DNA from: Sphingorhabdus sp. M41
GTDB lineage: Bacteria > Pseudomonadota > Alphaproteobacteria > Sphingomonadales > Sphingomonadaceae
Length of the DNA stretch: 64,000 nt
Assembly (NCBI RefSeq): GCF_001586275.1
Contig: NZ_CP014545.1
Location: 1,204,501-1,268,500, forward strand
Direction: 5' to 3'
The translations under genes were made by a program, and so were the position numbers. Positions 40,918-56,570 of this stretch are shown piece by piece; the first letter of the stretch is position 1, and each line of letters opens with the position of its first letter. The notes below the pieces were generated by a model. The model searched no databases and had not been told where the DNA came from. It saw nothing but the letters and a program-made list of their open reading frames with translations.

Positions 40918-43900
40918 ATGTCATTTCGTTCCATCAATCGTTCGCTATTAGTCACGGTGTCTTCAATAACCTGTATCACGGGATTGTCGACAGCGGCTCA
41001 CGCCCAGACCGGGCCTACTATGGTAGAAGATGCGCCTCATATAGTTATTCGTGACGATCTGACTTTGAACGACCCACCCCCTGTTGGAATTCTTGACAAT
41101 ATCGTTGATGTCACCGGCGTCGGGCAAATGACCGTGCGGCCTGATCAGAATACTACTTCTCTAGGGCTTTGCACCGGGACTTTAATCAACCCACGCACCG
41201 TGATATTTGCAGCTCATTGCGTGAATGACCAAGCTGCCAACACTTACGGTTTTGCGACGGGAGGCACGGCCATTGCCTTCGGGTTTAGTGCAAATAATCT
41301 TCCGGCTGTTCGCCGCTGGGTTGGGCTGGACGGTGGCATTGCAAACCAGACCGACGTAGATTTCAATATCTATAATGTAGAGCAAGTCTGGTACGACCAA
41401 CGCTCGCTTCCCACCGGTTTCCTCGAAGCTGATGTTGCGCTGGCAACGCTCGATACGCACGCTGGCGGAGTTCCGACCTGGACTATGTTGTTCTCGCCGT
41501 TAACAGCTGAGACACATGGTATCATAAACGGTTACGGAGCACGGGGGCTGGGACCTGATGGTTCCAACCTTGGCATTGATTTCCGGCGCCGCATCGCAGA
41601 GAATATGATTTCGTCCGCTAGCTCGCTGAATGACAGAAATAATTTCCTCTTCGGCCCGGATGATTATGGCTTGCCGCAAACCCTGTACAATACGGATTTT
41701 GACAGTCCGGCTGGTCAGGATGCCTTCGATTCCAACAATGGCGCATTTGATTTTGACCTGTATGATGGTGCTGCATTACCGCGGGAAGGAACGACAGCAG
41801 GGGGCGATTCCGGTAGCGCACTAGTCGCGGATGAACTTTTCGATACACCGGTTATTACGGCTGTATTGTCCGGTGGCTCGCGCTTTTTCGGGAATGATCC
41901 GTCCGACCCGCTGACATTCCAGCCCTTTTCTTCCTATGGAACACAAAGCTTCTATCAGCCGCTTTATCTTTTCTGGGACGAGATTGTGGCGAATAACAGC
42001 TATGTCTATGCATCCAGCCGTCGAGGAACGCGTGATTGGATGAACCCGCGCCATTGGGTGCAGGATATGGACCCGAATTACGGCATCAGTGTCGACGGCG
42101 AACTCGTCAACGCGCTCCCGGGGTTCGAGGCACCGGGCGTTTCCGGTGATACGCCAAAATTCGGCAATATCTGTTTCCTGGATGATTGTGCCGATTTGTC
42201 GACGCTGAGCGTTGCCCTTGAGGAAGGGGCTCCCAATAGTGTCTTTATCGAAGGCGGCCCTGGAAGCCGGAACTTCGTCCCGAATAATATCGTGGCTGAT
42301 CCATCAGCTGATATTCGAGCGCGCTATTTTGAAGTTACGCTGGCAGCGCACGGCACCACCAAATTGCGCGATGACGTGACCATTGATCGACTTAATCTTC
42401 AGGGCGCAGCGCGGCTTGATATCCGCGGGGACGGAAATCTCAAGGTCTGGGGTGATTATACCCAAACTGGCGGGTGGCTTGACCTGAGCGGCACTCTGAC
42501 AACCGGTGAAGCGTTGCTTGGTAAAGGACTTTTGACCGGCAGTGGCTTCTTCGATCCGACTTATCTGACGTCGGTCAACGGTTCCATAGCGCCCGGTGAT
42601 CAGTTCGGGGATACCGGAACGTTAACGATCGCTGGTGATGTCATCCTGGCGTCCGGTACATTGTCACTGTTCGACGTTAACCGCTACGGGAATGACAAGT
42701 TGGCGGTTGTTGGCGACGCTGACAATCTCGGTATCATTTCCTTGGGCGGTACCGCTGCCGTCATCAATGCATTTGGCCGTCGCAGTGCTCGCTATGGCCA
42801 GACGTTTCAGATTATCACAGCCGAAGGTGGCGTCGAAAATACCTTTGATGATGTGGTGGGAAGGATCGGTGTTCTCTATCCCGAACTGACCTATGGAGCG
42901 AATGATGTTACTGCGCGGATGCGGGCTATCCGTTTCTCCGATTTCTTTGGGAGTCACGGTATCCGCAACCCATTTTCACGGGCCTTCGGTCATGCACTGG
43001 ATAACCACCGCGGTCGCTCCTATACTGATCTCGCCAATGTCTATGGTGTGATCGATGTTATGGAAGCGGGTGAACTGAACGCAACCTTCCAAAGCCTGTC
43101 TGCATCGCGAGCTGGCCGGACAACGACCTTGGATGAAAAGCAAGGTTCCGCAATGCGGACATTGGTTTCCGATCGCTTGTCACTGCTCGGTACGGGTTAT
43201 GGGGTTGCTGGCAAAATCCAGATCATAGGAGCACCGGAGGTTCTAGACGACCGTCGGCAGATCACCGGAAGCATGGCCTCTCAGACCAGCTTTGCCAAAA
43301 ACTATCAGTCTTCCAACTGGAATGCTGTGACGTTGCCGGAAAATATGAGCGGGTTTATGTCTGCCGGATATGACCGGTCATCCTTGGCATTTTCGGATAA
43401 TAATATCGGGACAGAGCAGGCAAGCTGGCATATCGCCATGGGCTTGGAATTTGGTCTAGACGACCGCACCACGTTCGGTACGGCTTTTGGATATGCAAAT
43501 GGCGTGCAGGAGCTTGGCGGCAGTGTCGCCAATGTCGAAACAAATCAAGCCTCTGTCTACGGCAATTATCGGCTTGGTGGAAACTTCTACATCGGCGGGC
43601 AGGCTTCCATGGCTTATTCGCAGATCGACTCCAATAGCCGGGTGACGGCTGGACTGTCAGCCAGCAACCTGAACATCAATTCTCTGGCTTTTGCGAGTGA
43701 AATTGAAGCTGGCTACAATATCAATGTCGATGGCTTGATGCTGACGCCGCGTGCCAGCATTGGTTATTCCTCCTACACTGTCGACGGTTTCCGCGACAGT
43801 GCCGGAAGTCTGGCGCTGGCCGTGGATGATATCAGCCGCTCTGGTTTGGAAGCAAAAGTCGGAATGAAAATTTCGGGTAGCACCAAATTGAGCTACGCAT

Positions 43901-44169
43901 CGGGATGGTCATTCCAGCCAACCATGAAGCTGGATTACGTGAACCGGATCTCCGGAAATGACACGAACTTCCGTGTTCGCTTCCTCGATGCCGAAAATGT
44001 TTCGCTTCTTCTGCCCATTGGATTGCAGGACGCTTCCTATGGAGAGATGAAAGGCGGATTCAGCTTTACCAACGGCGCTCTAAGCTTTGGCGCCGCTGTG
44101 GAAAGCCGGTTGGGTCAGCAAATCTATCGTGATGATCGTGCGATGATGAACATGTCTCTGCGTTTTTAA
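40918..44169 (+). CDS. Autotransporter with trypsin-like serine protease passenger
   Basis: A 1083-aa protein with a signal peptide ending near AHAQ (residue 30). The passenger starts with an S1/trypsin-like domain carrying a full triad: H100 (FAAHCV), D172 (EADVALATLD) and S298 (GGDSGSAL). A beta-helix-like, PEP/GxG-poor region follows (about 400-700), with the autotransporter-type segment GSGFFDPTYLTSVNGSIAPGD-like spacing. The C-terminal autotransporter barrel (about 800-1083) ends MMNMSLRF, with a terminal aromatic. SD GAGGGGAGAG lies upstream of the ATG. It is monocistronic with its own terminator. Probably a surface-exposed or self-released protease. Confidence 0.88.
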   Translation: MSFRSINRSLLVTVSSITCITGLSTAAHAQTGPTMVEDAPHIVIRDDLTLNDPPPVGILDNIVDVTGVGQMTVRPDQNTTSLGLCTGTLINPRTVIFAAHCVNDQAANTYGFATGGTAIAFGFSANNLPAVRRWVGLDGGIANQTDVDFNIYNVEQVWYDQRSLPTGFLEADVALATLDTHAGGVPTWTMLFSPLTAETHGIINGYGARGLGPDGSNLGIDFRRRIAENMISSASSLNDRNNFLFGPDDYGLPQTLYNTDFDSPAGQDAFDSNNGAFDFDLYDGAALPREGTTAGGDSGSALVADELFDTPVITAVLSGGSRFFGNDPSDPLTFQPFSSYGTQSFYQPLYLFWDEIVANNSYVYASSRRGTRDWMNPRHWVQDMDPNYGISVDGELVNALPGFEAPGVSGDTPKFGNICFLDDCADLSTLSVALEEGAPNSVFIEGGPGSRNFVPNNIVADPSADIRARYFEVTLAAHGTTKLRDDVTIDRLNLQGAARLDIRGDGNLKVWGDYTQTGGWLDLSGTLTTGEALLGKGLLTGSGFFDPTYLTSVNGSIAPGDQFGDTGTLTIAGDVILASGTLSLFDVNRYGNDKLAVVGDADNLGIISLGGTAAVINAFGRRSARYGQTFQIITAEGGVENTFDDVVGRIGVLYPELTYGANDVTARMRAIRFSDFFGSHGIRNPFSRAFGHALDNHRGRSYTDLANVYGVIDVMEAGELNATFQSLSASRAGRTTTLDEKQGSAMRTLVSDRLSLLGTGYGVAGKIQIIGAPEVLDDRRQITGSMASQTSFAKNYQSSNWNAVTLPENMSGFMSAGYDRSSLAFSDNNIGTEQASWHIAMGLEFGLDDRTTFGTAFGYANGVQELGGSVANVETNQASVYGNYRLGGNFYIGGQASMAYSQIDSNSRVTAGLSASNLNINSLAFASEIEAGYNINVDGLMLTPRASIGYSSYTVDGFRDSAGSLALAVDDISRSGLEAKVGMKISGSTKLSYASGWSFQPTMKLDYVNRISGNDTNFRVRFLDAENVSLLLPIGLQDASYGEMKGGFSFTNGALSFGAAVESRLGQQIYRDDRAMMNMSLRF

Positions 44170-44339: not shown

Positions 44340-45614
44340 ATGGTTGACGACAATCACAAAAGCAATTTGCCGCCGCTGACTTTGCACATACCAGAACCGA
44401 AATTCCGTCCGGGTGACGCAGTTGACTATAGCGATCTGGATATTCCCAAAGCCGGCGCGCAGGCGAGGCCGGACATCAATAGCGCGCCCAAAGACATGCA
44501 GGACATGGTCTATGACATGGTCCGCGTTCTGGATGACGATCACAAGGCTGTCGGTCCGTGGGATCCCAAGCTGGACGACGAAATATTGCTCAAGATGCTC
44601 CGCACAATGGTGCAGGTGCGGACCTTTGACGACCGGCTCCATCGCCAGCAGCGTCAGGGCAAGACCAGCTTCTACATGAAATGTACCGGCGAGGAGGCGA
44701 CATCGGTTGCCGCCGCCATGGCATTGCACGGCGATGACATGTGCTTCCCGAGCTATCGCCAGCAGGGCATATTGTTCGTTCGCGGCTATCCGATGATCGA
44801 GATGGTCAACCAGATATTTTCGAACAAGGCGGACAAGCTCAAGGGGCGCCAGCTGCCGATCATGTATAGTTCGAGCGAGCTGAATTTCTTCACCGTATCG
44901 GGCAATCTGACAACCCAATATCCGCAGGCCGTGGGCTGGGCGATGGCCAGCGCCAGCAAGGGTGACAGCCGGATCGCCGCCGCATGGTGCGGCGAGGGAT
45001 CGACCGCCGAGGGCGATTTTCACGCGGCGATGACCTTTGCCGCGGTCTATAATGCGCCGGTGATCATGAATGTGGTTAACAATCAGTGGGCGATTTCGTC
45101 CTTTTCCGGTTTTGCCGGGGCAGAGCGGACCACCTTTGCCGCGCGGGGTGCCGGCTATGGTATTGCCGCCTTGCGGGTCGACGGCAATGATCCGCTGGCT
45201 GTCTATGCGGCTACAAGCTGGGCTGCAGAACGGGCGCGGACCAATCAGGGCCCGACATTGATCGAACATTTCACTTATCGTGCGGAAGCGCACAGTACTT
45301 CGGATGATCCCACGGCCTATCGCAGCGCACAGGAGCGCGAAGAATGGCCGCTTGGCGACCCGATCATGCGGCTCAAGCGGCATTTGATCCAGCGCGGGGT
45401 CTGGAGCGAGGAGCAGCAGGAATCGCTCGATCAGGAATCGCTCGAGGCGGTCAAGGATGCGGTCAAGGAGGCCGCCAAAAACGGCATATTGGGCCACGGT
45501 CTGCACCAGCCGTTTGAAACCATGTTTCAGGATGTGTTTGAAGAAATGCCCTGGCATCTCAAGGAACAAGCCGCACAGGCCAATAAGGAACGGGAAATCA
45601 AATGGCCGTCATGA
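44340..45614 (+). CDS. bkdA1: Branched-chain 2-oxoacid dehydrogenase E1 alpha subunit
   Basis: Thiamine-diphosphate-dependent decarboxylase subunit acting on the 2-oxoacids of Val, Leu and Ile. The TPP/Mg motif is GEGSTAEGDFHAAM...NNQWAIS; the phosphorylation-loop-like YRAEAHSTSDDPTAYR is typical of the family. The 424-aa length with an N-terminal extension (PPLTLHIPEPKFRPGDAVDY) is characteristic of BkdA1 rather than pyruvate dehydrogenase E1alpha. It overlaps the E1beta gene by 13 bp. Confidence 0.95.
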   Translation: MVDDNHKSNLPPLTLHIPEPKFRPGDAVDYSDLDIPKAGAQARPDINSAPKDMQDMVYDMVRVLDDDHKAVGPWDPKLDDEILLKMLRTMVQVRTFDDRLHRQQRQGKTSFYMKCTGEEATSVAAAMALHGDDMCFPSYRQQGILFVRGYPMIEMVNQIFSNKADKLKGRQLPIMYSSSELNFFTVSGNLTTQYPQAVGWAMASASKGDSRIAAAWCGEGSTAEGDFHAAMTFAAVYNAPVIMNVVNNQWAISSFSGFAGAERTTFAARGAGYGIAALRVDGNDPLAVYAATSWAAERARTNQGPTLIEHFTYRAEAHSTSDDPTAYRSAQEREEWPLGDPIMRLKRHLIQRGVWSEEQQESLDQESLEAVKDAVKEAAKNGILGHGLHQPFETMFQDVFEEMPWHLKEQAAQANKEREIKWPS

Positions 45615-46624
45615 ACATGATAGAGGCTATCAACAACGGCCTCGAAACCATGATAGAACGCGACGACAATGTCGTGATCATGGGCGAAGACGTCGGCTAT
45701 TTCGGCGGTGTTTTCCGCGCGACTGCAGGCCTGCAGGAGAAGTTCGGCAAGACGCGATGCTTCGATACGCCGATTTCCGAATGCGGCATCATCGGCGCTG
45801 CGGTCGGCATGTGCGCTTATGGCCTGCGGCCGGTGCCGGAAATCCAGTTTGCCGATTATATCTATCCCGGAATGGATCAGCTGATCTCGGAAGCAGCGCG
45901 GCTGCGCTATCGGTCGGCGGGTGAATTTACTGCGCCGCTAACGGTCCGTTCGCCATTTGGCGGCGGGATTTTCGGGGGGCAGACGCACAGCCAGTCGCCG
46001 GAAGCCATGTTCACCCATGTTTCGGGGCTGAAAACAGTCATCCCTTCGACGCCTTATGATGCCAAGGGGCTGCTGATTGCGTCGATCGAGGATAATGATC
46101 CGGTGCTCTTCCTTGAGCCCAAGCGGATCTACAATGGGCCGTTTACCGGCTATTATGACAATCCGGTCTCGCCCTGGTCGAAATTTGCCGAATCCGAAGT
46201 GCCCGAGGGCCATTATACGGTGCCGCTGGGCAAGGCCAAGATCGTCCGCGAAGGCGATGCGGTGACGGTTCTGGCTTATGGCACGATGGTTCATGTCGCC
46301 AAGGCGGTGGTCGAGGAACATGGGATAAACGCCGAAGTCATCGATCTGCGGACTTTGGTGCCGCTCGATATCGAGACCATTGAAGAGTCGGTGAAAAAGA
46401 CTGGGCGCTGCCTGATCGTGCATGAGGCGACGCGGACGAGCGGCTTTGGCGCGGAACTGTCGGCGCTGGTGCAGGAACGCTGTTTCTACCATCTGGAAGC
46501 ACCGATTGAGCGGGTTACCGGATTTGACACACCCTATCCGCACAGCCTGGAATGGGCCTATTTTCCGGGACCGGTACGGATTGGTGAAGCGCTGGAAAAG
46601 ATTGTCGGGGATTTGAAATCATGA
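45602..46624 (+). CDS. bkdA2: Branched-chain 2-oxoacid dehydrogenase E1 beta subunit
   Basis: Partner of E1alpha in an alpha2beta2 decarboxylase. The 340-aa transketolase-like protein has MGEDVGYFGGVFRAT, TPISECGIIGAAVGM, RSPFGGGIFGGQTHSQSPE and the C-terminal domain VIDLRTLVPLDIETI. It overlaps both neighbours (13 bp and 4 bp), consistent with translational coupling and equal subunit amounts. Confidence 0.95.
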   Translation: MAVMNMIEAINNGLETMIERDDNVVIMGEDVGYFGGVFRATAGLQEKFGKTRCFDTPISECGIIGAAVGMCAYGLRPVPEIQFADYIYPGMDQLISEAARLRYRSAGEFTAPLTVRSPFGGGIFGGQTHSQSPEAMFTHVSGLKTVIPSTPYDAKGLLIASIEDNDPVLFLEPKRIYNGPFTGYYDNPVSPWSKFAESEVPEGHYTVPLGKAKIVREGDAVTVLAYGTMVHVAKAVVEEHGINAEVIDLRTLVPLDIETIEESVKKTGRCLIVHEATRTSGFGAELSALVQERCFYHLEAPIERVTGFDTPYPHSLEWAYFPGPVRIGEALEKIVGDLKS

Positions 46625-47940
46625 GCAAATATACATTCAACCTGCCTGACATTGGCGAGGGTATTGCCGAAGCGGAAATCGTCAAATGGCATATCAAGAT
46701 CGGGGATATTGTCGCCGAAGATGACCAGATTGCCGATGTCATGACCGACAAGGCGACTGTGGAGATGGAAGCGCCGGTTTCGGGCAAGATTGTCGCGATC
46801 GCCGGGGAGGAAGGCGACATTATCGCAATCGGTTCGATGCTGGTCGAGATCGAAGTCGAGGGCGAGGTTGATGCCGACAAATTGGAAGAATTGGAAGCAT
46901 CCAGTACCGTTGCCGATGTCTCTGAAACACCGAAGCCTGTCGCGAAAGATGATGGTCAAGTAACTGAAAATAAAGAAGAAAAATACAAGCCTTCCGCAAA
47001 TCCAACAGCGCAGGCCGATGCCGTAGAACCCGCTGCCGCTCCGGTCGCTTCCGATGGTCCGGCGACGGAACCTGCCGGGCAGAAAGTGCTCGCCACGCCG
47101 GCCGTTCGCAAGCGTGCTGCCGATCTCGGCGTCGATCTGAGTCAGGTCAAGGCCCAGGGCGAGCATATCCGGCACAGCGATCTCGACGCTTATCTGAACT
47201 ATGGTTCGGGGCAGGGCTACCGTCCGTCCGGTGCTGTGCAGAAACGTGACGACGAAAAGATCAAAGTTATCGGAATGCGGCGCAAAATTGCGCAAAATAT
47301 GGCAGATTCGAAACGAAATATACCACATTTCTCCTATGTCGACGAAATCGACATGACCGAGATCGAGGATATGCGTGGCGATCTGAATGCCAATCGCGGC
47401 GAGCGGGCCAAGCTTACGATCTTGCCGCTGATGATCGCCGCCATTTGCAAGGCCTTGCGCGATTTCCCGATGCTCAATGCGACCTATGATGATGAAGCGG
47501 GCTTTGTCACACGGCACGGCGCTGTGCATCTCGGCATGGCCACCCAGACTTCGCAGGGACTGATGGTTCCAGTGCTTCGCGACGCACAGGATATGAATGT
47601 CTGGCAGCTGGCATCGGAAATTAGCCGTCTGGCAGCGGCCGCGCGCGATGGCAGCGCCACCGCCAAGGAATTGTCGGGATCGACTTTGACCCTGACATCG
47701 CTCGGCCCGCTCGGCGGGATCGCGACAACGCCGGTGATCAACCGCCCCGAAGTGGCGATCATCGGCCCGAACAAGATTGTCGAACGGCCAATGATCATCG
47801 ACGGCGAAATTCACGCGCGCAAGCTTATGAACCTGTCGATCTCGTGCGATCACCGGGTTGTCGATGGCTATGATGCGGCCAGCTATGTGCAGGCGCTGAA
47901 GCATTTTCTGGAAACGCCGGTGCTGCTGTTCGCTGACTGA
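46621..47940 (+). CDS. bkdB: Branched-chain 2-oxoacid dehydrogenase E2 (lipoyl acyltransferase)
   Basis: Core acyltransferase of the complex. The N-terminal lipoyl domain has the modified Lys in MTDKATVEMEAP (about residue 44). An Ala/Pro/Glu-rich linker follows, then the E3-binding domain (LATPAVRKRAADLGVDLSQV) and the catalytic domain ending SCDHRVVDGYDAAS with the HxxxDG motif. The length is 439 aa. No E3 (dihydrolipoamide dehydrogenase) gene follows; a shared E3 from elsewhere is likely. Confidence 0.95.
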   Translation: MSKYTFNLPDIGEGIAEAEIVKWHIKIGDIVAEDDQIADVMTDKATVEMEAPVSGKIVAIAGEEGDIIAIGSMLVEIEVEGEVDADKLEELEASSTVADVSETPKPVAKDDGQVTENKEEKYKPSANPTAQADAVEPAAAPVASDGPATEPAGQKVLATPAVRKRAADLGVDLSQVKAQGEHIRHSDLDAYLNYGSGQGYRPSGAVQKRDDEKIKVIGMRRKIAQNMADSKRNIPHFSYVDEIDMTEIEDMRGDLNANRGERAKLTILPLMIAAICKALRDFPMLNATYDDEAGFVTRHGAVHLGMATQTSQGLMVPVLRDAQDMNVWQLASEISRLAAAARDGSATAKELSGSTLTLTSLGPLGGIATTPVINRPEVAIIGPNKIVERPMIIDGEIHARKLMNLSISCDHRVVDGYDAASYVQALKHFLETPVLLFAD

Positions 47941-48230: not shown

Positions 48231-51200
48231 TCAAAGCCCGAGGCTGCCCAGGCTTTCCTGGTCGAATTTCAGGCGGAAGGTGATGAACGGGCCGTCGCGG
48301 GTGTAGCGGCTTTCTTCAAAGTCGCGGTCTGCAAAGCCGACCACATTATAGCCGACCGAAATATAGGCGTTCTTGAACGGCGTGATGCCGACGCTCGGGC
48401 CGCCGGAATAGGCGATGCTGTCAAAATCATTGCCGACGCGGGCCGTGGCCTGGCCGCCGACATCGATGGTGTCGGAAAGGTCGAACTTTACGTCTGCACC
48501 GATGACGTTGCTCCAGCCTTCAACATCATCCTGCCCGAAGCGGTCGAACACATAGCGGCTTCCCCAGAAGAGACTATATTCCCCTGCTTCCTTGAAGCGG
48601 CCCTGATTTGCATTGATCGGCGTATAGTTCACGCTCAAGCTGTTGATGATCCGGCGCGAAGTGACATTGCCATCGACGAGCAGCGGCGCACCGCCAATCG
48701 GTCCGGATGTACCAGCGACGGCATGGCGCACGCGATCTTCCCGGAATTCGAGTTTTTCAAGCCAGGACCATTCGCTGTCTGCGGGACGATGTGCCCAGCT
48801 GGCTTCCGCTTCGATCACTCTTGTGCTTACCCCGGTTTCGTCTTCCGCTACAAATATACTTGCCAGTGCACCGAGTGCGCTGCCTTCGCCTATCTGTTTG
48901 AGCAGCGCGGTGGTGAAACCATAGCGGGTGCTGATGTCACCATCGCGATATTCTGCGCGGCTGGTCCAGCTCCAGTCGGCGTTGCGATAGGTGGCACCGG
49001 CGGTGACCGCGAGAAAATCCTCGGTCAGTATCGCGTCATTGCCGAGAAAGCCGCCCGAGATGACCGGCTGTTCATCATTGATGACATCGCCGCGATCAAA
49101 TCCGCTGATGGTTTCATTGCCATCCAGCGAGAAATCGACGGTCCATTTGTCGTCAATCGGTATGCTCTGTGTCAAGCCGTAGGCGGCATAGCTGCGCGGA
49201 CCATATTCGGTAATTTCCTGCTGGTTCATGCTGCTGACGATGCGCGCGCCGTTCCAGGGTGAGACGTCGACGCCGATCCGGGCGGTGCGGGCGTCGATAT
49301 TCTCGCCATCGGCAATTTCGTAGGTGCCGATGATCTTGATATTCTCGGTCAGGGCGTAGCGCGCAGAGAAGCTGTGCCGCGCGGGGAAGTCGATGCTTTC
49401 GTCCTGACCGCCGAGCGCAAATTCGGTCTGGGCATCCAGTTCCAGCTTGCCGTCGAACAGCCGCTGCGTGGCACCGAGCCGGACCAGCCTGGATTCGTTG
49501 ACCGTACCGTCGGAGAGCTGGTCATTGGCATAGACAAGGCCAGCACGGAAAGACGTGTTGTCGGTGCGATATTCCAGTTCCGCGGTACCGGCGCGGCGGC
49601 GAGCGTCCGACATCAGAAAGTTTTCCTGATAGCCGGTGACCGCCAGAGACAGATTTTCACGGATGCGAACCCGGGCATCGATGCCGAATTTGCGGGTGCC
49701 GGACTCTGCTGCATTGAGCTGGCCCAGGCCATAGCCGGATGCCTGGCGTCTGACATAAGCGAGAATGTCGAATTTCGAGCCGTGATGTTCGGCTTCGACC
49801 AGCCATGCGGTTGCGGCTATTCCCGTGTTTGTCGCCGTGGAGTCTTTTGCCTCATTGTCGGTCACGGCAAGCTCCGCCCGGAATTCGGTGTTGAGGTCCG
49901 GCCGGTAGCGAATGTCGACACCGAGCAGATCGGTTTTGACGCTCTCATTCTCATCATGCACGGCCGTTGCGCCGATTTTCATTTTTTGGTCGGCGCTTTG
50001 ATAGGTCGCACGGCCACCGGTGTTGAGATTGCGGTCGCCAATGCCGAGCACTTCATATTCGGCGATGATGAATTGCGGATCAAGCGCGCTGCTGCGGCTC
50101 AGGATCGGTTCGCGGAAGCGCAATGTCCCAGCGAGATAGTCGATGTCATAATCGATATGCCGGGTCAATTCGCGCCGTTCGGCGATCTTGTCCGAACGGA
50201 ATCGATCGCGCGTTTCCAGTGTGATTCGTTCGCTATTGGCGAGGATATCGCGGCTGGTCAGGGCATAGGGGCCGGAAAGACCGTTGCCCTGGATTTCCTC
50301 GCGGCGGAACCGGTTGGGCGAATCTGCGGCAAAGCCGTTGAGATGTACCTGGTCGCTGCGATATTCGGCCTTGATGCCATTGAACGCGCGCTGGTAACGG
50401 GCCAGTTCAGGTTCGCTGATCCCGGTTTCATAATCGCCGAACAGCGCATAAAATTGGGGCCGTTCCAGCTTCAGATAGAGGCGGCGGACCGATGCGGCGT
50501 CATAACGTTGCTCGCTACGGTCGGCATAAACCGTGTAATAGCGGCGCGGATCAATGACGCCCTGGAACCGTGTTTCATCATCCCGCTTGTCGCTGTCATA
50601 GGCGAGGGTCATCAGCCATTTTCCGGTCAACCGACCCTTGGCATAAAGCGCGATCCGGCCATCAACGTTGATATTGTCCTCATCGCCTGCAAGATCCTCA
50701 AGCCGCTCGTCGAGCGTATTGAAACCGAGCGTGCCGGCAGCAAAGCCAACAACGGTCCATGGTCGGTCGCCGGGATCGAGCCATGTTTCAACCCGCTGGA
50801 CGCGTTCGACTTCGCCGTCGCGGAAAGGAAAAGAGATGCTGAGCGATCCGGACGCGGTCGTCGGCGCCAATTCGATATAAGCGATGCCATCCTCGCCTTC
50901 GACCTGCCAGACGGGCGCTCCCCGTTCGAGACCGGCGAGCTGGTTGGCTTGCTGGGCATCGATTTCAATGGCCGGTGCATAAGGCACAGGCACCGAGAAG
51001 TCGCCAACCGAGCCATGGCGAGCGGGCCTGCCGTTGCGGTCGGTCAGTCGCACCGCAATCACTGGGCGGGTTACGCCATCAGCGATCAGGACCGAGTGAT
51101 CCTTGAGCAATTCAGCATTGAGCGGACTACCGGCATAATGAACCGTGCGTTCCAGTTGCTGCACGAGTTCACCGTTCCGATCGATCACCCGGGCCACGAA

Positions 51201-53369
51201 GACATTGGCCCGGTCGCCAATTTCGATCCCGCGCCAGGTACTGACCCGGACCTTGCCGTCGGCGCTCTTCTTCATCCCGTCATAGGCAAGCGGATTAACC
51301 GCTACGCCATTGATCGACAGTTCGATTTTCTGCCCGGCATGATGTTTGATGGCGACGCGCAGCGCCTTGACCCGCGGATTATGATCCTCTTCGGGAAAAA
51401 GCCACGCGATGCCGGGTTCCTGTCCGGAGATATAGTCGCGACCGGCTCCGGCCGCTTCGGGATCGGACAGAGGCTCGGGCTTTTGATAGCTGGCGGGCTT
51501 GTCCATTTCTCTTGCAGCGACTTTTCTGGCCCGGAAATCGGCGCGTTTCAGTGCGCCGCCACGGCCCTCGACGAAGCGGGAAATATGGCTGCCTGCGGTC
51601 CGTGTGTTTTGCGCACAGTCGACCGGTGCCAGATCGGCGGGGAAGGTCGAGGGGTCGACTTGCACCACGTGCAGGCCGGGTTTGAGGCCTTCGAAATGAT
51701 AGCGACCGTCGCGGTCGGTGATCGTGTAGGTTCCGTCTTGCAGCATCACGCGAACACCTGCGATTCCCGAGGCTTCCCGGGGATCGGTTCCGCATCCGCC
51801 TTCGGTGATCCGGCCGACAAGGGTGAATCGTTCAGAAATTCCGTCACGGACAATGCTGACGATTGCATCGACAGTCGGACTGGTGGCGCCGCGATCATCA
51901 CGCGCCGAGGCAAGGTTCAGGGCGTCGCCGGGCTGGGCATCCTGACGCACTTCCGCAATATAGGTAAACAATCCGCTAGCCGACGGGGGCAGGGGCGGGG
52001 CCTCAACGGTAAAATCCCGTCCATTGGCTTCGACATTGGCGATAATCAACCTGCCATTGTAGCGGACCGTGCCGGCTTTCAGGCGCATCGCAGCAGGCAG
52101 CTGGTCGGAAAGTAGAATCTGGCCGCTATTGCGCGTGGAATCCGTATTTCCCACCGCTATCCGATATTGCACAGCGTCTCCGGGTGCCGCCTGGGCAGTG
52201 GATGCCGTTTTTGTGATCGTCAGCGGCGCTCCGGGCCGGTCAAGTGGTACGTCCACCCGAACCGGGGCCGGACCATTCAATATGATGTTACCGCCAAAGG
52301 ATCCGTCGACAATAGTGAAGGGAAGTCCATCCGACCGCCGCAAACCAGCCAGTTGCCGGGGTGTGGCCACCGACGCGAAGCTATAAGGCTGCGGTGGTTC
52401 GACCAGCAGGCGATATTCGCCGGCCCGGGCGAAGGGAAAGCGATAGAAGCCGTCGCGGAAATTGTAGAGGGTTCCGCCGCTATCGGTGACGGTTCCCCCT
52501 GCAATCACGGTGCTGGGAAATATCGAGACGCCGTCGTCGCCAAAGACATCGGCTGGCTGGCCGGTAGCCGTGTCGATGAGGGTGACGCGCGCTCCGCTGA
52601 TCGGTGTGCCGTCGCCACTGTCGAAAATCTCTCCGAAAGGATCGACCAGGATGCCGACTTTTGCGCTACCGATTGCATTGCCGCTGATTTCATGGACAGT
52701 GATATCAAAAGTTTCACCGCGCTTGACCGACAGGACGCAATCGCCCTGCATCGGGGCAGGCGGAACCGCAGCCGTATTGATCAGCGCGACAAACCGGCCG
52801 CTATCGGCCGCAGTCTCGATGATATTTATCTGCTCCCGGTCGCCCGTGGGCGTGGTGAGCAATATATCAAAGCTGTCGATTGCCAGCGGATCCACATTGC
52901 TGCTTGCGGAGAGAATCGAGATTATCAGTGGTTCGCCCGCCCTGATATTGTCGGTTGGCATGACCGAGGCCGGATTTGTCGGTGTTCCTGCGAATGCGCC
53001 GGTGAGACCGATCGGGATATTGCCCTGCAAGCCCCGGCACATCGTGCCCGCCAGCGGTATCTTTTCGGAACCGGGAGGGTCAGCGAAGTGAAAAAGCATG
53101 ACTTCGAACGGCTGCATCGGCGGCGGAACGACCTGGATGTCGATTCGGTTGGATGGTTTCTGCTGCCGCCGGCTGCCGATATCCCATTCTGCTCGGGCGA
53201 TATTGCTGATGAGCGGCAGGTTCTGCGTCTGATTGCCGGCAAAATTCGTTGCCTGAGGCTGCTCCTCGGCAAAATCGGGTTGCGCGACTGCCATAGAGGC
53301 AGACGCGGTCAACGCGCATGCAGCAAATGCCAGACCGACTGGCCTAAAAAAGGTGGGGAATATACCCAC
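48231..53369 (-). CDS. Giant exported DUF11 / outer-membrane beta-barrel protein
   Basis: A 1712-aa protein starting at GTG 53369 (no strong SD), with a signal peptide ending near AVAQ (residue 30). An N-terminal beta-rich region contains a CarboxypepD/SdrB-like segment (about 245-325). A DUF11 repeat lies at about 383-505 (LTITKTASTAQAAPGDAVQY, then SDQLPAAMRL). A second SdrB-like fold follows (about 520-575, GVRVMLQDGTYTITDRDGRY). More beta-sandwich sequence precedes a C-terminal half (about 900-1712) of alternating amphipathic strands with many Asp/Arg/Tyr turns, ending FITFRLKFDQESLGSLGL, which I read as an outer-membrane barrel. It is the last gene of a four-gene unit of exported proteins. 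The overall architecture matches no family I can name with confidence. Confidence 0.75.
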   Translation of the reverse strand: MGIFPTFFRPVGLAFAACALTASASMAVAQPDFAEEQPQATNFAGNQTQNLPLISNIARAEWDIGSRRQQKPSNRIDIQVVPPPMQPFEVMLFHFADPPGSEKIPLAGTMCRGLQGNIPIGLTGAFAGTPTNPASVMPTDNIRAGEPLIISILSASSNVDPLAIDSFDILLTTPTGDREQINIIETAADSGRFVALINTAAVPPAPMQGDCVLSVKRGETFDITVHEISGNAIGSAKVGILVDPFGEIFDSGDGTPISGARVTLIDTATGQPADVFGDDGVSIFPSTVIAGGTVTDSGGTLYNFRDGFYRFPFARAGEYRLLVEPPQPYSFASVATPRQLAGLRRSDGLPFTIVDGSFGGNIILNGPAPVRVDVPLDRPGAPLTITKTASTAQAAPGDAVQYRIAVGNTDSTRNSGQILLSDQLPAAMRLKAGTVRYNGRLIIANVEANGRDFTVEAPPLPPSASGLFTYIAEVRQDAQPGDALNLASARDDRGATSPTVDAIVSIVRDGISERFTLVGRITEGGCGTDPREASGIAGVRVMLQDGTYTITDRDGRYHFEGLKPGLHVVQVDPSTFPADLAPVDCAQNTRTAGSHISRFVEGRGGALKRADFRARKVAAREMDKPASYQKPEPLSDPEAAGAGRDYISGQEPGIAWLFPEEDHNPRVKALRVAIKHHAGQKIELSINGVAVNPLAYDGMKKSADGKVRVSTWRGIEIGDRANVFVARVIDRNGELVQQLERTVHYAGSPLNAELLKDHSVLIADGVTRPVIAVRLTDRNGRPARHGSVGDFSVPVPYAPAIEIDAQQANQLAGLERGAPVWQVEGEDGIAYIELAPTTASGSLSISFPFRDGEVERVQRVETWLDPGDRPWTVVGFAAGTLGFNTLDERLEDLAGDEDNINVDGRIALYAKGRLTGKWLMTLAYDSDKRDDETRFQGVIDPRRYYTVYADRSEQRYDAASVRRLYLKLERPQFYALFGDYETGISEPELARYQRAFNGIKAEYRSDQVHLNGFAADSPNRFRREEIQGNGLSGPYALTSRDILANSERITLETRDRFRSDKIAERRELTRHIDYDIDYLAGTLRFREPILSRSSALDPQFIIAEYEVLGIGDRNLNTGGRATYQSADQKMKIGATAVHDENESVKTDLLGVDIRYRPDLNTEFRAELAVTDNEAKDSTATNTGIAATAWLVEAEHHGSKFDILAYVRRQASGYGLGQLNAAESGTRKFGIDARVRIRENLSLAVTGYQENFLMSDARRRAGTAELEYRTDNTSFRAGLVYANDQLSDGTVNESRLVRLGATQRLFDGKLELDAQTEFALGGQDESIDFPARHSFSARYALTENIKIIGTYEIADGENIDARTARIGVDVSPWNGARIVSSMNQQEITEYGPRSYAAYGLTQSIPIDDKWTVDFSLDGNETISGFDRGDVINDEQPVISGGFLGNDAILTEDFLAVTAGATYRNADWSWTSRAEYRDGDISTRYGFTTALLKQIGEGSALGALASIFVAEDETGVSTRVIEAEASWAHRPADSEWSWLEKLEFREDRVRHAVAGTSGPIGGAPLLVDGNVTSRRIINSLSVNYTPINANQGRFKEAGEYSLFWGSRYVFDRFGQDDVEGWSNVIGADVKFDLSDTIDVGGQATARVGNDFDSIAYSGGPSVGITPFKNAYISVGYNVVGFADRDFEESRYTRDGPFITFRLKFDQESLGSLGL

Positions 53370-53389
53370 AGCTAGAGCCGCGATTCAGC

Positions 53390-53417
53390 GGCAAACCGGT
53401 AAAAATGCCGGTTTGCC
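53390..53417 (-). promoter_or_regulatory. Perfect hairpin just upstream of the giant gene
   Basis: GGCAAACCGG (53390-53399) and CCGGTTTGCC (53408-53417) form a 10-bp perfect stem with an 8-base A/T-rich loop, in the 66-bp spacer before the GTG start. No T-run follows on the minus strand. It may lower read-through into, or alter stability of, the giant-gene message. Confidence 0.55.
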
Positions 53418-53435
53418 GTCAAATTGCGATATGCT

Positions 53436-54545
53436 TTATTCTACCGTTGCGCGGAAGATGAGGGTTTCGGTGGTACCCGAAGCAACTGTGCCAAGATTGC
53501 CTGACACAACGCCGGCCGCAAGTGTGCCGGTGCCAGTGCCATCTGCATTGCAGACGGACCCCGATACCGTGCCTTCGGTTACCACGCCGATGACGGACGG
53601 AACCGTGGCCGGTCCCGCAGCCAATGTGCTGTAATAGACCAGGTTGGCCGGAATCGTATCCGAAATGGCCACACCTGTCGCGGCAGCCCCACCGGCGGCG
53701 TTGGCAACCGCAATGCAATATTCGACGATAGCGCCGGGTATCGCTTTGGGATTGGTATTGCCATTGATCGGATCCCACAGAACATTACTGGTTTTTGTCA
53801 CCGTGATATCCGCAGCAGCCACTTCATAAGTGTCTGTAGCGCTGTGATAACCGTCACCCGCACCATCGCCGGTTCCCGAACCTCCGGCATCGTCAAATAC
53901 GTTCTGAACCGTCGCTGCATCATCTGCATCGCCCGCGCTGTTCAGATAGGCGGCGCCCTTGATACCGGCCCCGGTAGAAGGGAGGCCCGCACCGCCGTGG
54001 GCAGCTGCCTGGCCAATCAGCACGAGATCGGCCAGATCGCCGGTCACCGCGCCGCCCGGGATGTTCGCCACTGCGTGAACCGTAACGCTGCTGTCTTCCG
54101 CCAGGTTGTCGATATAGGTGATCAGCGTGTCACCAGCGTCCAGGACGCCCGCAGTCGTACCATTGTCGAGATAATAGGTGATCACACCGACAAGATCGAA
54201 ATCATCCGATCCGAGCTGTTCGGATGTCAGCAAAACGTCGATCGTGTCGTTGGTCTGGTTGCTGACCGTATAGGTGACGGCTTGCTGTAGCGCATTGGGA
54301 GCAACCGAGCTGTTTACCGAGTCGCTTTTGGCTACGATCAGGTTGACCTTGCGATCGACCACGAAAGTATCGCTGTCGGTTTTGGCGGTCTGGCTAGTGC
54401 CGCCGACACTATAGGCTACGCTTACGTCATTTTTTATGCTCGTTCCTGCATCAGTGCCCAGATCTGCAGCGAACGCGGGGTTTGCACCCAGCGCCGCTAC
54501 AGAAATGGTACTAGTGGCAACGAGAAGTTTCAGTATACTGGTCAT
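53436..54545 (-). CDS. Exported DUF11-type protein (Ig-like repeats)
   Basis: A 369-aa protein with a signal peptide ending near AFAA (residue 27). Two similar beta-sandwich units are seen. The first (about 30-160) opens GTSIKNDVSVAYSVGGTSQT. The second (about 240-365) has the typical DUF11 pattern DITVTKTSNVLWDPINGN, GAIVEYCIAVANAAGG and ISDTIPANLVYYS. No cell-wall anchor or barrel is present. ATG 54545 has GGAG 7 bp upstream; the in-frame GTG at 54563 is less likely. It is the third gene of the four-gene unit. Confidence 0.8.
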   Translation of the reverse strand: MTSILKLLVATSTISVAALGANPAFAADLGTDAGTSIKNDVSVAYSVGGTSQTAKTDSDTFVVDRKVNLIVAKSDSVNSSVAPNALQQAVTYTVSNQTNDTIDVLLTSEQLGSDDFDLVGVITYYLDNGTTAGVLDAGDTLITYIDNLAEDSSVTVHAVANIPGGAVTGDLADLVLIGQAAAHGGAGLPSTGAGIKGAAYLNSAGDADDAATVQNVFDDAGGSGTGDGAGDGYHSATDTYEVAAADITVTKTSNVLWDPINGNTNPKAIPGAIVEYCIAVANAAGGAAATGVAISDTIPANLVYYSTLAAGPATVPSVIGVVTEGTVSGSVCNADGTGTGTLAAGVVSGNLGTVASGTTETLIFRATVE

Positions 54546-54587
54546 AACTGTCTCCTGTTTCACTTATTTGGATCGCCCAACCCCGCG

Positions 54588-54605
54588 GCAACCCGGTACG
54601 GTTGC
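54588..54605 (-). promoter_or_regulatory. Hairpin between two DUF11 genes
   Basis: GCAACC (54588-54593) and GGTTGC (54600-54605), extendable through CCGC/GCGG with a bulge, sit just after the stop of the small DUF11 gene. No T-run. Possible processing or attenuation site. Confidence 0.35.
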
Positions 54606-54607
54606 GG

Positions 54608-55072
54608 TCACTTCACAGTGCCGCGAAAAACCAATTTCCCTCCTGAACCTGCGGAAATAGAACGATTAAACTTCCATTTCACATGGGTTACGTCGGTCAT
54701 CAGAGCGGGCCGGACATCGCCATTGCCGCTGCTGTAGGTAAGGTCGGAAAGCGGCCCCCATTTCTTGCCTCCGTCAACGGAGACAATTTCGGTGCCGTCA
54801 GACGTTCCCTTGAACGCCACTGCCTTGGGCAGCGGGTTGGTGACGGAAAAATCCGAAGCCGGTGCATTGCCGACATTCCGATATTTGACGACGAACACGA
54901 GATTGTCGCCGGGTGTGACGGTTTTCGGCTGTTCGAGAACCAAAGCGGTGGTGCCGTTCGGCTTTGCCACCTTGCGTTCCACGTAGACATCGCTCGACAG
55001 GCTGACACTATTGGCCGCCATGGCCGTGCCGGGCAGGATCAGTGCTATTGCGAGAAGAAATCCTTTTATCAT
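54608..55072 (-). CDS. Small exported DUF11-like protein
   Basis: A 154-aa protein with a signal peptide ending near AMAA (residue 20) and one DUF11-like unit. Residues about 21-150 carry VYVERKVAKPNG, PGDNLVFVVKYRNVGNAPAS, FSVTNPLPKAVAFKG and the closing GGKLVFRGTVK. This is the single-repeat version of the fold found in its neighbours. It is the second gene of the four-gene unit, 21 bp downstream of the first. Confidence 0.8.
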   Translation of the reverse strand: MIKGFLLAIALILPGTAMAANSVSLSSDVYVERKVAKPNGTTALVLEQPKTVTPGDNLVFVVKYRNVGNAPASDFSVTNPLPKAVAFKGTSDGTEIVSVDGGKKWGPLSDLTYSSGNGDVRPALMTDVTHVKWKFNRSISAGSGGKLVFRGTVK

Positions 55073-55093
55073 GCTGGTAAACCCCGATTAAGT

Positions 55094-56143
55094 TCAGTCG
55101 ATGGTGACTTGGAAGGTGATTGTGCGTGTTTGTCCGCCCGGAACGGTGCCGAGGGCCACGGTGACCGCACCGCTGTCAAAGGCGCCGGCATCGCCGTCGC
55201 TCAGGGCATCGCTCAGCGGCGCGCCTTCGAGCGTGATGCTTTCCGATTTATAAGTGGTGTCAGCAGGAATAGCGTCGCTGATCGCCAGATTGGTCAGATC
55301 ACTGGAGCCGATGGTGGTCGCGACCAGCTGATAGACAATGACCGCGCCTGGCACGGGCTCTGTCCCGCCATAGGGGTCGACGATGGTCGCGCTCTTGACC
55401 AAGGTAACATCGGAAGCCTGAACCGCGAAAAAGCCGCTGCCGGCGTCACGAGCGCCGCTCGAGCCGATGACGGCATCGCCGCCGCCATCACCCTGTCCGG
55501 CGAATATGCTGCCGGGCGTTCCGGTACCGGTTTTGGCTATGGCAGAAAGTTCAATCTCGGCCCGCTCCGTGTCATTGGCGGATGCGGGAATGGTGGAGAG
55601 GATGAAAACGGTGATGCTTTCATCTGGCGCCAGTATAGGATCATTGGTGCCGGGCGTGTAAATCGTATCGACGCCGGGATCATAGACGCCATTGCCGTTG
55701 CTATCGAGAATGGCAATTTCAAAACTCGTGTCAAATTCGTCGCCGGGCTTTGTGGTGTCGGCCGACAGCGTAAAGGCTTCCGAGCCGTTTCCGCTATTGG
55801 TGAGCTGATAGGTCAGCACCTGTCCAGTCCACCCGGGGGCGACGGTCACATCGCCCGGATCACTCGACACGACGGTGACGTCGAGCAACTCGTCAACCTT
55901 GATGGTTACCATATTGGAATCGATCGTGACCGGCGTCCCGCCTCCGGGCGCGTCATAAGTGGCTTGGGCGGAATTGATGATGTCGGTTCCGGCGATCGTT
56001 CCAGCGGACTGAGCCGCCGTTGATGCCAGAGCCAGGAAAGCGGTGCCAAACGCAAACGCCCATCGGCGACCGACGGCAAGCGCCGCAAATAGGTCCGTTC
56101 GGCGTCCCAAATGCTGTGTTGGTGCATAATCCATGGCGGTCAT
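55094..56143 (-). CDS. Exported DUF11-type protein with calcium-loop-like segment
   Basis: A 349-aa protein. The N terminus is long and basic (RRTDLFAALAVGRRWAFAF) before a signal-peptide core ending near AQSA (residue 47). The segment ILDSNGNGVYDPGVDTIY resembles the Asp-rich calcium-binding (thrombospondin-3/dockerin-like) loops found in surface proteins. DUF11-like units follow, ending SDVTLVKSATIVDPYGG, GAVIVYQLVATTIG and ISDAIPADTTYKS. There are two possible starts (56143 and 56134), neither with a clear SD. It is the first gene of the four-gene exported-protein unit. Confidence 0.8.
   Translation of the reverse strand: MTAMDYAPTQHLGRRTDLFAALAVGRRWAFAFGTAFLALASTAAQSAGTIAGTDIINSAQATYDAPGGGTPVTIDSNMVTIKVDELLDVTVVSSDPGDVTVAPGWTGQVLTYQLTNSGNGSEAFTLSADTTKPGDEFDTSFEIAILDSNGNGVYDPGVDTIYTPGTNDPILAPDESITVFILSTIPASANDTERAEIELSAIAKTGTGTPGSIFAGQGDGGGDAVIGSSGARDAGSGFFAVQASDVTLVKSATIVDPYGGTEPVPGAVIVYQLVATTIGSSDLTNLAISDAIPADTTYKSESITLEGAPLSDALSDGDAGAFDSGAVTVALGTVPGGQTRTITFQVTID

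Positions 56144-56493: not shown

Positions 56494-56565
<72 letters not shown>

Positions 56566-56570
<5 letters not shown>

Follow-up and report, generated by a model that had tools for sequence, protein, structure and literature searches.

What do four adjacent genes for exported DUF11 proteins build? The question is raised by a unit of Sphingorhabdus sp. M41 that lies at ~1.25 Mb of a 3.34 Mb genome on a single contig, inside the 64,000-nucleotide stretch analysed here (NZ_CP014545.1, positions 1,204,501 to 1,268,500; hereafter the window, in whose coordinates features are given). An earlier reading of the letters alone (the sequence-only reading) had seen in these genes, at 48231-56143, an exported unit that suggested a surface fibre or stalk. 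We arrive at a more specific answer, to which we assign a probability of roughly 0.6, namely that the unit makes a cell-surface fibre by donor-strand complementation of split DUF11 (CLIPPER) domains.

The open reading frame (ORF) listing of the window gives four minus-strand genes in the order C-B-A-giant. Genes C (55094-56143; 349 amino acids, aa) and A (53436-54545; 369 aa) would encode linking subunits, each with a donor strand behind its signal peptide, one DUF11-like domain read as complete and a C-terminal DUF11 domain without its last strand. Gene B (54608-55072; 154 aa) encodes a single acceptor-like DUF11 domain and no donor, and the giant (48231-53369; 1712 aa) is a donor-only protein that would form the base of the fibre. 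The length of A is counted from an ATG that is preceded by AGGAGA, resembling a ribosome-binding site by eye, and that lies six codons downstream of an alternative GTG start at 54563, from which the protein would have 375 aa. Gaps of 21 nucleotides (nt) separate C from B, 44 nt B from A (62 to the ATG of A) and 66 nt A from the giant. Both the signal peptides on four same-strand genes and the presence of DUF11 in all four proteins, with an SdrB-like fold in the giant, had been claimed by the sequence-only reading, and both hold: all four N-termini look like signal peptides by eye, Pfam matches DUF11 in each protein (in A and B below its cut-off), an NCBIfam DUF11-type repeat model is above cut-off in all four, and a CarboxypepD_reg/SdrD_B-like domain is matched by Pfam in the giant at 51642-51785 (minus strand).

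Conservation of the unit and its truncated domains

We counted 105 loci, the window included, each with a full giant and at least 3.6 kb of upstream DNA. All four genes occur in the order C-B-A-giant in 104 of them, gene A of one (L146) being located by tblastn, and in 98 of 99 when loci are counted by distinct giant sequence, which was done for the six duplicated loci. The sole locus short of the full set, L091, lacks B. Because the whole set recurs in order in 104 of 105 homologous loci, its association is far beyond chance; the four genes do form a unit, and the giant's homologues do not, for the most part, stand without the small genes, an outcome that the sequence-only reading had named as counting against itself. 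Moreover, in 34 giant loci with wide flanks (L036-L069) matches to C, B and A lie upstream in all 34, the C of L061 being split over two overlapping frames. Among the best 80 of 463 relatives, which were kept from a scan of genome contigs, the nearest named ones by giant protein identity are Sphingorhabdus and Parasphingorhabdus species. The giant is present in 29 of the 32 genus genomes (several of them drafts); in one genus relative (G121:C1:192290-197409) it appears as two overlapping matches with stop codons inside one. At the family level, 43 of 119 genomes match it at an expectation value (E) of 1e-10, 37 with long matches and six sharing only the barrel stretch in other proteins of 1200-1500 aa, and at the class level its profile matches 11 of 385 genomes at E 1e-20, some not over the full length. 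A plasmid search with A yielded one record, from Novosphingobium sp. THN1.

The name CLIPPER was given to DUF11 in a 2025 survey, passages of which describe that such domains can form a bond between a lysine (Lys) and an asparagine (Asn) with the assistance of an aspartate (Asp) (PMC12617251). In structure 9IFR the bond involves Lys715, Asp748 and Asn806 of a domain spanning 712-812, positions that place the Asn near the domain end (PMC12617251). The giant carries this triad within one complete internal DUF11 domain (51897-52223, minus strand), whose Lys387, Asp422 and Asn485 are each found in 101 of 101 sequences, and the region is similar to 9IFR (E 3e-6). In A and C the C-terminal domain does not hold the full triad. 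The Pfam match there stops at position 84 of 114, where the protein itself ends; Lys and Asp are retained (Lys250 and Asp290 in C, acceptor at 55097-55423; Lys251 and Asp296 in A, or 257 and 302 in the 375-aa numbering, acceptor at 53439-53819; both minus strand) and the domain ends ahead of the Asn strand. The point at which the chain stops is constant within each family, being shared by 93 of 99 C sequences, 95 of 98 A and 98 of 98 B.

An Asn is found at the other end of the chain. Behind the signal peptides of C, A and the giant lies a common motif, G-T-x-A-G-x-x-I-x-N-T-A-x-A-x-Y...S-N-x-V...V-D, carried on the minus strand by the donor segments of C (AGTxAGTxIxNxAxAxY...SN...VDE, 55883-56008, Asn57), of A (54342-54464, Asn39, or Asn45 in the 375-aa numbering) and of the giant's mature N-terminus (53106-53219, Asn56, conserved in 101 of 101). 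The donor Asn co-occurs with both acceptor residues, Lys and Asp, in 95 of 99 C sequences (the exceptions being two with Ser for Asn and two partial) and in 96 of 98 A sequences (one with Glu for Asp, one with Ala for Asn), that is, jointly in 191 of 197 distinct rows of A and C.

Donor profiles, each built from the very sequences then counted, match at E 0.01 all 105 C, all 104 A and 104 of 105 giants, and none of 104 B proteins or of the 21 products of a fifth gene described below. Across families at the same threshold, giants are found by the C profile in 102 of 105 cases, C proteins by the giant profile in 102 of 105 and by the A profile in 86 of 105, and A proteins by the C profile in 70 of 104 and by the giant profile in 29 of 104; judged by these profiles, the three kinds of donor segment are mutually related. 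In the host genome the motif occurs only in C, A and the giant (E 1e-5). Among 4976 ORFs of the loci, the matches inspected individually were those that start beyond residue 110 of an open frame; by eye, every one of these with E<0.01 lies after a signal peptide, and two weak ones (E 0.047 and 0.89) do not.

If the donor is the missing DUF11 strand, joining it to an acceptor should improve the match to complete domains, and for the donor of C it does in the following comparisons. In Pfam scans of joined pieces, the C acceptor alone scored 30.5 bits with DUF11, 18.2 with DUF7507 (cut-off 27) and 24.8 with DUF7927 (cut-off 31); the values became 33.2, 28.6 and 27.5 with the C donor, 30.5, 19.6 and 30.2 with the A donor, 33.9, 18.4 and 25.1 with the giant donor, and 30.3, 16.6 and 25.0 with a shuffled donor. 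For the A acceptor the DUF11 score of 29.9 bits alone changed to 33.1, 31.3 and 32.8 with the donors of C, A and the giant, respectively, and to 29.4 with a shuffled one. Twelve C acceptors compared with DUF7507 at E 1e-6 gave no match alone, five with their own donors and none with reversed donors, and the corresponding numbers were 3, 4 and 3 for DUF11 and 3, 5 and 3 for DUF7927. Furthermore, in a profile comparison with the giant's complete DUF11 domain, the C donor adds 7.6 score units to the C acceptor and 7.2 to the A acceptor and lengthens the match from columns 4-97 to columns 4-134 of 136, and in the alignment of the joined domain the donor Asn falls on Asn. One decoy (A joined to C residues 190-229) gave an implausible score of 191, which dropped to 67.0 with only window columns kept; of the comparison that gave 191, only the Asn-on-Asn alignment is used beyond what the restricted comparison reproduces. 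Against solved structures the joined domain gave weak unrelated matches only, and the C acceptors alone gave none.

Ends of the proposed fibre and rival arrangements

The ends are distributed over the proteins as follows: A and C have donor and acceptor, the giant has a donor only, and the products of a fifth gene have an acceptor only. Of 98 loci with sufficient sequence beyond the giant, 21 have this DUF11-bearing gene there (19 of 92 distinct loci), and its products keep Lys and Asp in 18 of 21 rows by eye (two row pairs being identical), the rows without the pair being L046, its twin L136, and L066. The host genome holds DUF11 only in the four genes and in one detached protein of 650 aa (E 0.001; L072:6422-8374 = G000:C1:2496381-2498330), a proposed fibre tip with a P-domain and one complete DUF11 domain. 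Over its final 236 residues it resembles the A profile (E 1e-42), and by eye the terminal domain has the same kind of end as A and C and retains both Lys and Asp; no clear donor was found in it (best donor profile E 0.065). Long matches to this protein occur in 26 of 32 genus genomes, some of them headless, with a weak match only in G126; it is missing from three of the 29 giant-bearing genomes and from all three giant-less ones (several being drafts). Nine tip-like proteins were scanned, of which two carry a P-domain and one, from a distant genome, an ice-binding-like domain, and the other six have no such head, one of them having SdrD_B and extra DUF11 domains. B is different from A and C, since it has no donor and, in this family, neither Lys (present in 12 of 98) nor Asp (replaced by Asn in 92 of 98).

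These ends suggest a chain that runs from an acceptor-only tip to a donor-only membrane base. A fifth-gene product, or here the detached P-domain protein, would start the fibre as its tip. The linking subunits A and C, whose last DUF11 domain lacks the final strand and retains the reactive Lys and the catalytic Asp, begin behind the signal peptide with a strand that resembles the missing one and bears the partner Asn. Inserted into the incomplete C-terminal domain of the following subunit, this strand would complete it and link the two head to tail. The giant, having only a donor and a putative C-terminal barrel, would then hold the proximal end in the outer membrane, and B, acceptor-like and here without Lys and Asp, may act as a non-covalent cap or as a periplasmic chaperone. 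As Lys and Asp lie in one chain and Asn in the other, it is conceivable that the junction closes an intermolecular isopeptide bond unaided, and we regard such a bond as possible. Observed directly are the gene order, the truncated acceptors, the common N-terminal motif, its distribution over the proteins and the conserved residues; the fit of donor to acceptor, the polarity, the tip and cap roles, the anchoring barrel, the route of export and the covalent bond are inferences. A fuller version of this scheme would be a sortase-free covalent Gram-negative fibre, with DUF11 junctions shared by two proteins, an autocatalytic intermolecular Lys-Asn bond, interchangeable tip adhesins, a donor-only outer-membrane barrel end, and B keeping donors open until export; we put it forward tentatively, at somewhat less than even odds.

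At the level of the phylum, a search with the donor profile matched 13 of 398 genomes, nine from the own family and four from other classes, and eleven stretches (L239-L249) were examined. L239 (G584) has C-, B- and A-like genes, the giant and the fifth gene in unchanged order. L240 (G750) and L242 (G676) have a donor-less protein of 2100 aa, B, two linking subunits and the giant; L241 (G529) has B, two links and the giant; and L243 and L244 (G204 and G315, two genomes of the same class that the search with the giant brought up) have B, one link and the giant. The usual gene set is present in L248 and L249, from the own family, and L245-L247 hold paralogous barrels, preceded in L246 and L247 by DUF11-like matches. 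By eye, the linking subunits of L239-L244 keep Lys and Asp of the last domain and the donor Asn in ten of ten cases, and the giants of these loci keep the donor Asn in five of six. On this inspection, the distant Pseudomonadota loci retain the scheme.

Several observations weigh against the proposed fibre. For each acceptor, two of 120 decoys outscored the donor of C, and the donors of A and the giant gained at most 0.9, no better than the 120 decoys. With a narrower DUF7507 profile, made from unrelated repeat proteins, any added donor lowered the mean score, with little difference between real and shuffled donors; here real donors beat all 20 of their own shuffles in 21 of 97 cases at best and in 2 of 91 at worst. 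At E 0.01, no more than four of 105 giants match the donor profile of A. Among the distant loci, the giant of L241 is without the donor Asn, the donors of the L240 and L242 giants are discernible only by eye, the best profile match having E 0.041, and the B proteins of L240-L242 seemingly have the Asp by eye, so that B is not everywhere as it is in the window's family. Some DUF11 domains, moreover, are described in the survey's passages as having no isopeptide bond (PMC12617251), and a donor might fold into the acceptor of its own chain instead of that of the next subunit. On the profile evidence, the identity of the donor with the missing DUF11 strand has moderate support for C and weak support for A and the giant, the latter two through the relatedness of the donors.

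Folding back would turn A and C into self-complemented secreted proteins, closed monomers that the giant displays singly, and both proteins do carry donor and acceptor in the same chain, with the same-gene donor scoring best for C. We nevertheless consider this unlikely, given that the giant has a donor and no truncated acceptor, and that in the 650-aa protein and all 21 products of the fifth gene an acceptor is present and a donor was not detected; a polymer would be expected to have such donor-only and acceptor-only members. Quite unlikely, in our view, is a surface coat without strand exchange, in which DUF11 proteins bind non-covalently to the giant, and the truncated C-termini and the N-terminal motif are habits of the lineage. 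The survey's passages place DUF11 proteins commonly among adhesins, and also among archaeal S-layer candidates (PMC12617251), and the negative profile tests of the A and giant donors suit such a coat. Against it stands the joint retention of motif Asn and truncated-domain Lys and Asp, in the A and C rows counted above and in the distant loci inspected.

The giant as a putative base, and its surroundings

The sequence-only reading took the giant for the likely anchor, and the composition of its C-terminal half points the same way. Residues 861-1712 (48234-50789, minus strand) form a barrel-like region with 10.4% aromatic residues, 2.6% Pro and no Cys, compared with 6.4%, 7.9% and 0.6% in residues 1-860, and end by eye in a last strand of the outer-membrane type followed by a short tail. 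Outer-membrane proteins typically end in an aromatic residue, as do the paralogues that share the barrel stretch. In Pfam and NCBIfam no family exceeds its cut-off over the C-terminal ~850 residues (OMP_b-brl at E 0.6, SprA at E 0.019); the weak matches include some outer-membrane barrels (OMP_b-brl, PagL, YadA anchor, OmpG, LptD) and others that are not. SprA/Sov of the type IX translocon (TIGR04189) was rejected with 12.1 bits against a cut-off of 200, only one of nine barrel pieces, the window's own, being weakly matched. Counts of amphipathic strands gave 47 peaks in the C-terminal and 42 in the N-terminal half, which does not distinguish the halves, and we therefore claim no strand number. 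Overall, the giant is probably anchored in the outer membrane by a C-terminal barrel.

Alternatively, the giant might chiefly be an usher-like pore that exports the small proteins, which are then released. It adjoins the subunit genes in 104 of 105 loci, and the composition of its last 850 residues is compatible with a wide barrel; yet it bears a donor motif itself, superfluous in a mere pore, and has no usher or PapD match in Pfam, which makes a pure exporter very improbable. As the base of a fibre, the giant would be needed in fewer copies than the subunits, and in this respect a strong hairpin without a T-run between A and the giant (53389-53418, minus strand) is only suggestive: it perhaps lowers expression of the giant relative to the subunits. 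Perfect hairpins of at least 8 base pairs occur in 25 of 109 A-giant gaps (0.6 expected by shuffling), in 10 of 108 B-A gaps (0.4 expected) and in 3 of 109 C-B gaps (0.8 expected).

Part of the giant's barrel region (about 865-1180) is shared by a second family of barrel-like proteins of ~1150-1720 aa (L070, L071 and L245-L247), which in some loci directly follow very long DUF11 proteins and may represent a related two-gene system. Near the unit, on the opposite strand, a separate surface protein is encoded at 40918-44169 (plus strand), an autotransporter whose N-terminal part is trypsin-like and whose barrel matches PF03797. Convergent with the giant are three genes at 44340-47940 (plus strand) that by eye resemble E1 alpha, E1 beta and E2 of a 2-oxoacid dehydrogenase complex, and several close relatives have similar-looking genes after the giant. 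A tRNA-Asp (GTC) lies at 56494-56570 (plus strand), upstream of C and on the opposite strand to it.

Place among known fibre systems

Together, the exported unit, the fibre or stalk as its best reading, the giant as likely anchor and the absence of a named system with this layout, for which the Pfam and NCBIfam scans offered no fitting candidate, stand as the sequence-only reading had them. What it overlooked is the possible fit of split domains: the DUF11 domains cut out of register at subunit ends, the bookkeeping of Lys, Asp and Asn, the acceptor-only tips and the difference of B. No DUF11 fibre with split domains was found in the openly licensed literature searched (bioRxiv and most subscription papers lie outside it), including the passages of PMC12617251, PMC9715654, PMC11952670 and PMC12282271, which do hold intramolecular DUF11 bonds, donor-strand fibres and an archaeal thread. 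We take the unit to be a real and apparently undescribed fibre system.

If our reading is true, the unit represents a further route of building a pilus, with strand exchange like that of chaperone-usher systems on a different fold, dispensing with the customary chaperone and usher, and with a fibre base that anchors itself in the membrane. DUF11 proteins that are at present annotated as unknown in sphingomonads and some other Pseudomonadota would thereby gain a function. Were the split-domain junction covalent, it would moreover parallel SpyTag/SpyCatcher in nature and could serve in materials and in surface display.

Type V autotransporters combine an N-terminal passenger and a C-terminal barrel in one chain. 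The giant likewise has an N-terminal part and a barrel-like C-terminus in one chain, with no match to a PF03797-type autotransporter barrel in Pfam or NCBIfam. As regards sortase pili, LPXTG is near no C-terminus of the four proteins, one internal LPSTG is present in A, and sortase genes were not searched for. Type 11 secretion systems (T11SS) were dropped as a candidate, the passages found being nearly all on DUF1194, a longer name than DUF11 (PMC12282271).

A and C show a sequence pattern like that of subunits with an N-terminal donor strand and an incomplete C-terminal Ig-like fold. Chaperone-usher pili have an acceptor-only tip adhesin. In type 1 and P pili, as described in passages of PMC9715654, an N-terminal donor strand completes the incomplete Ig-like domain of the neighbour, which is the arrangement proposed here. 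Unlike these pili, the unit has the DUF11 fold and not the pilin fold, its base is fused to its own barrel, and none of its four proteins has a Pfam match to usher (PF00577) or PapD-like chaperone (PF00345). The host genome has usher and PapD-like matches elsewhere, at about 626,600-629,400 and 2,977,900-2,980,800 of G000:C1 (~0.63 and 2.98 Mb).

SpyTag/SpyCatcher is a split CnaB domain that reacts unaided. Like the proposed junction, it links a peptide to a domain of another chain through an isopeptide bond that involves Lys (PMC6539128). It is, however, engineered and has an Asp partner, whereas the split in the unit would be natural, with a CnaA-like fold and an Asn partner. DUF11/CLIPPER fibrillar adhesins (PDB 9IFR) share the domain family and the Lys-Asp-Asn triad, but in the portions of PMC12617251 that describe them a single chain contains the entire domain and the bond forms within it, while the domain of the unit would be split between proteins. 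The archaeal thread filament (Saci_0406) is similar in its head-to-tail donor-strand complementation and its proposed covalent intersubunit bond, and differs in that this bond runs from the N-terminal alpha-amino group to an Asn two subunits away and not through a split-domain Lys-Asn triad; it is archaeal, and DUF11 goes unmentioned in the main text of the paper on it (PMC9715654). Overall, the unit may well belong among the donor-strand fibres, with parts of its own and possibly its own chemistry.

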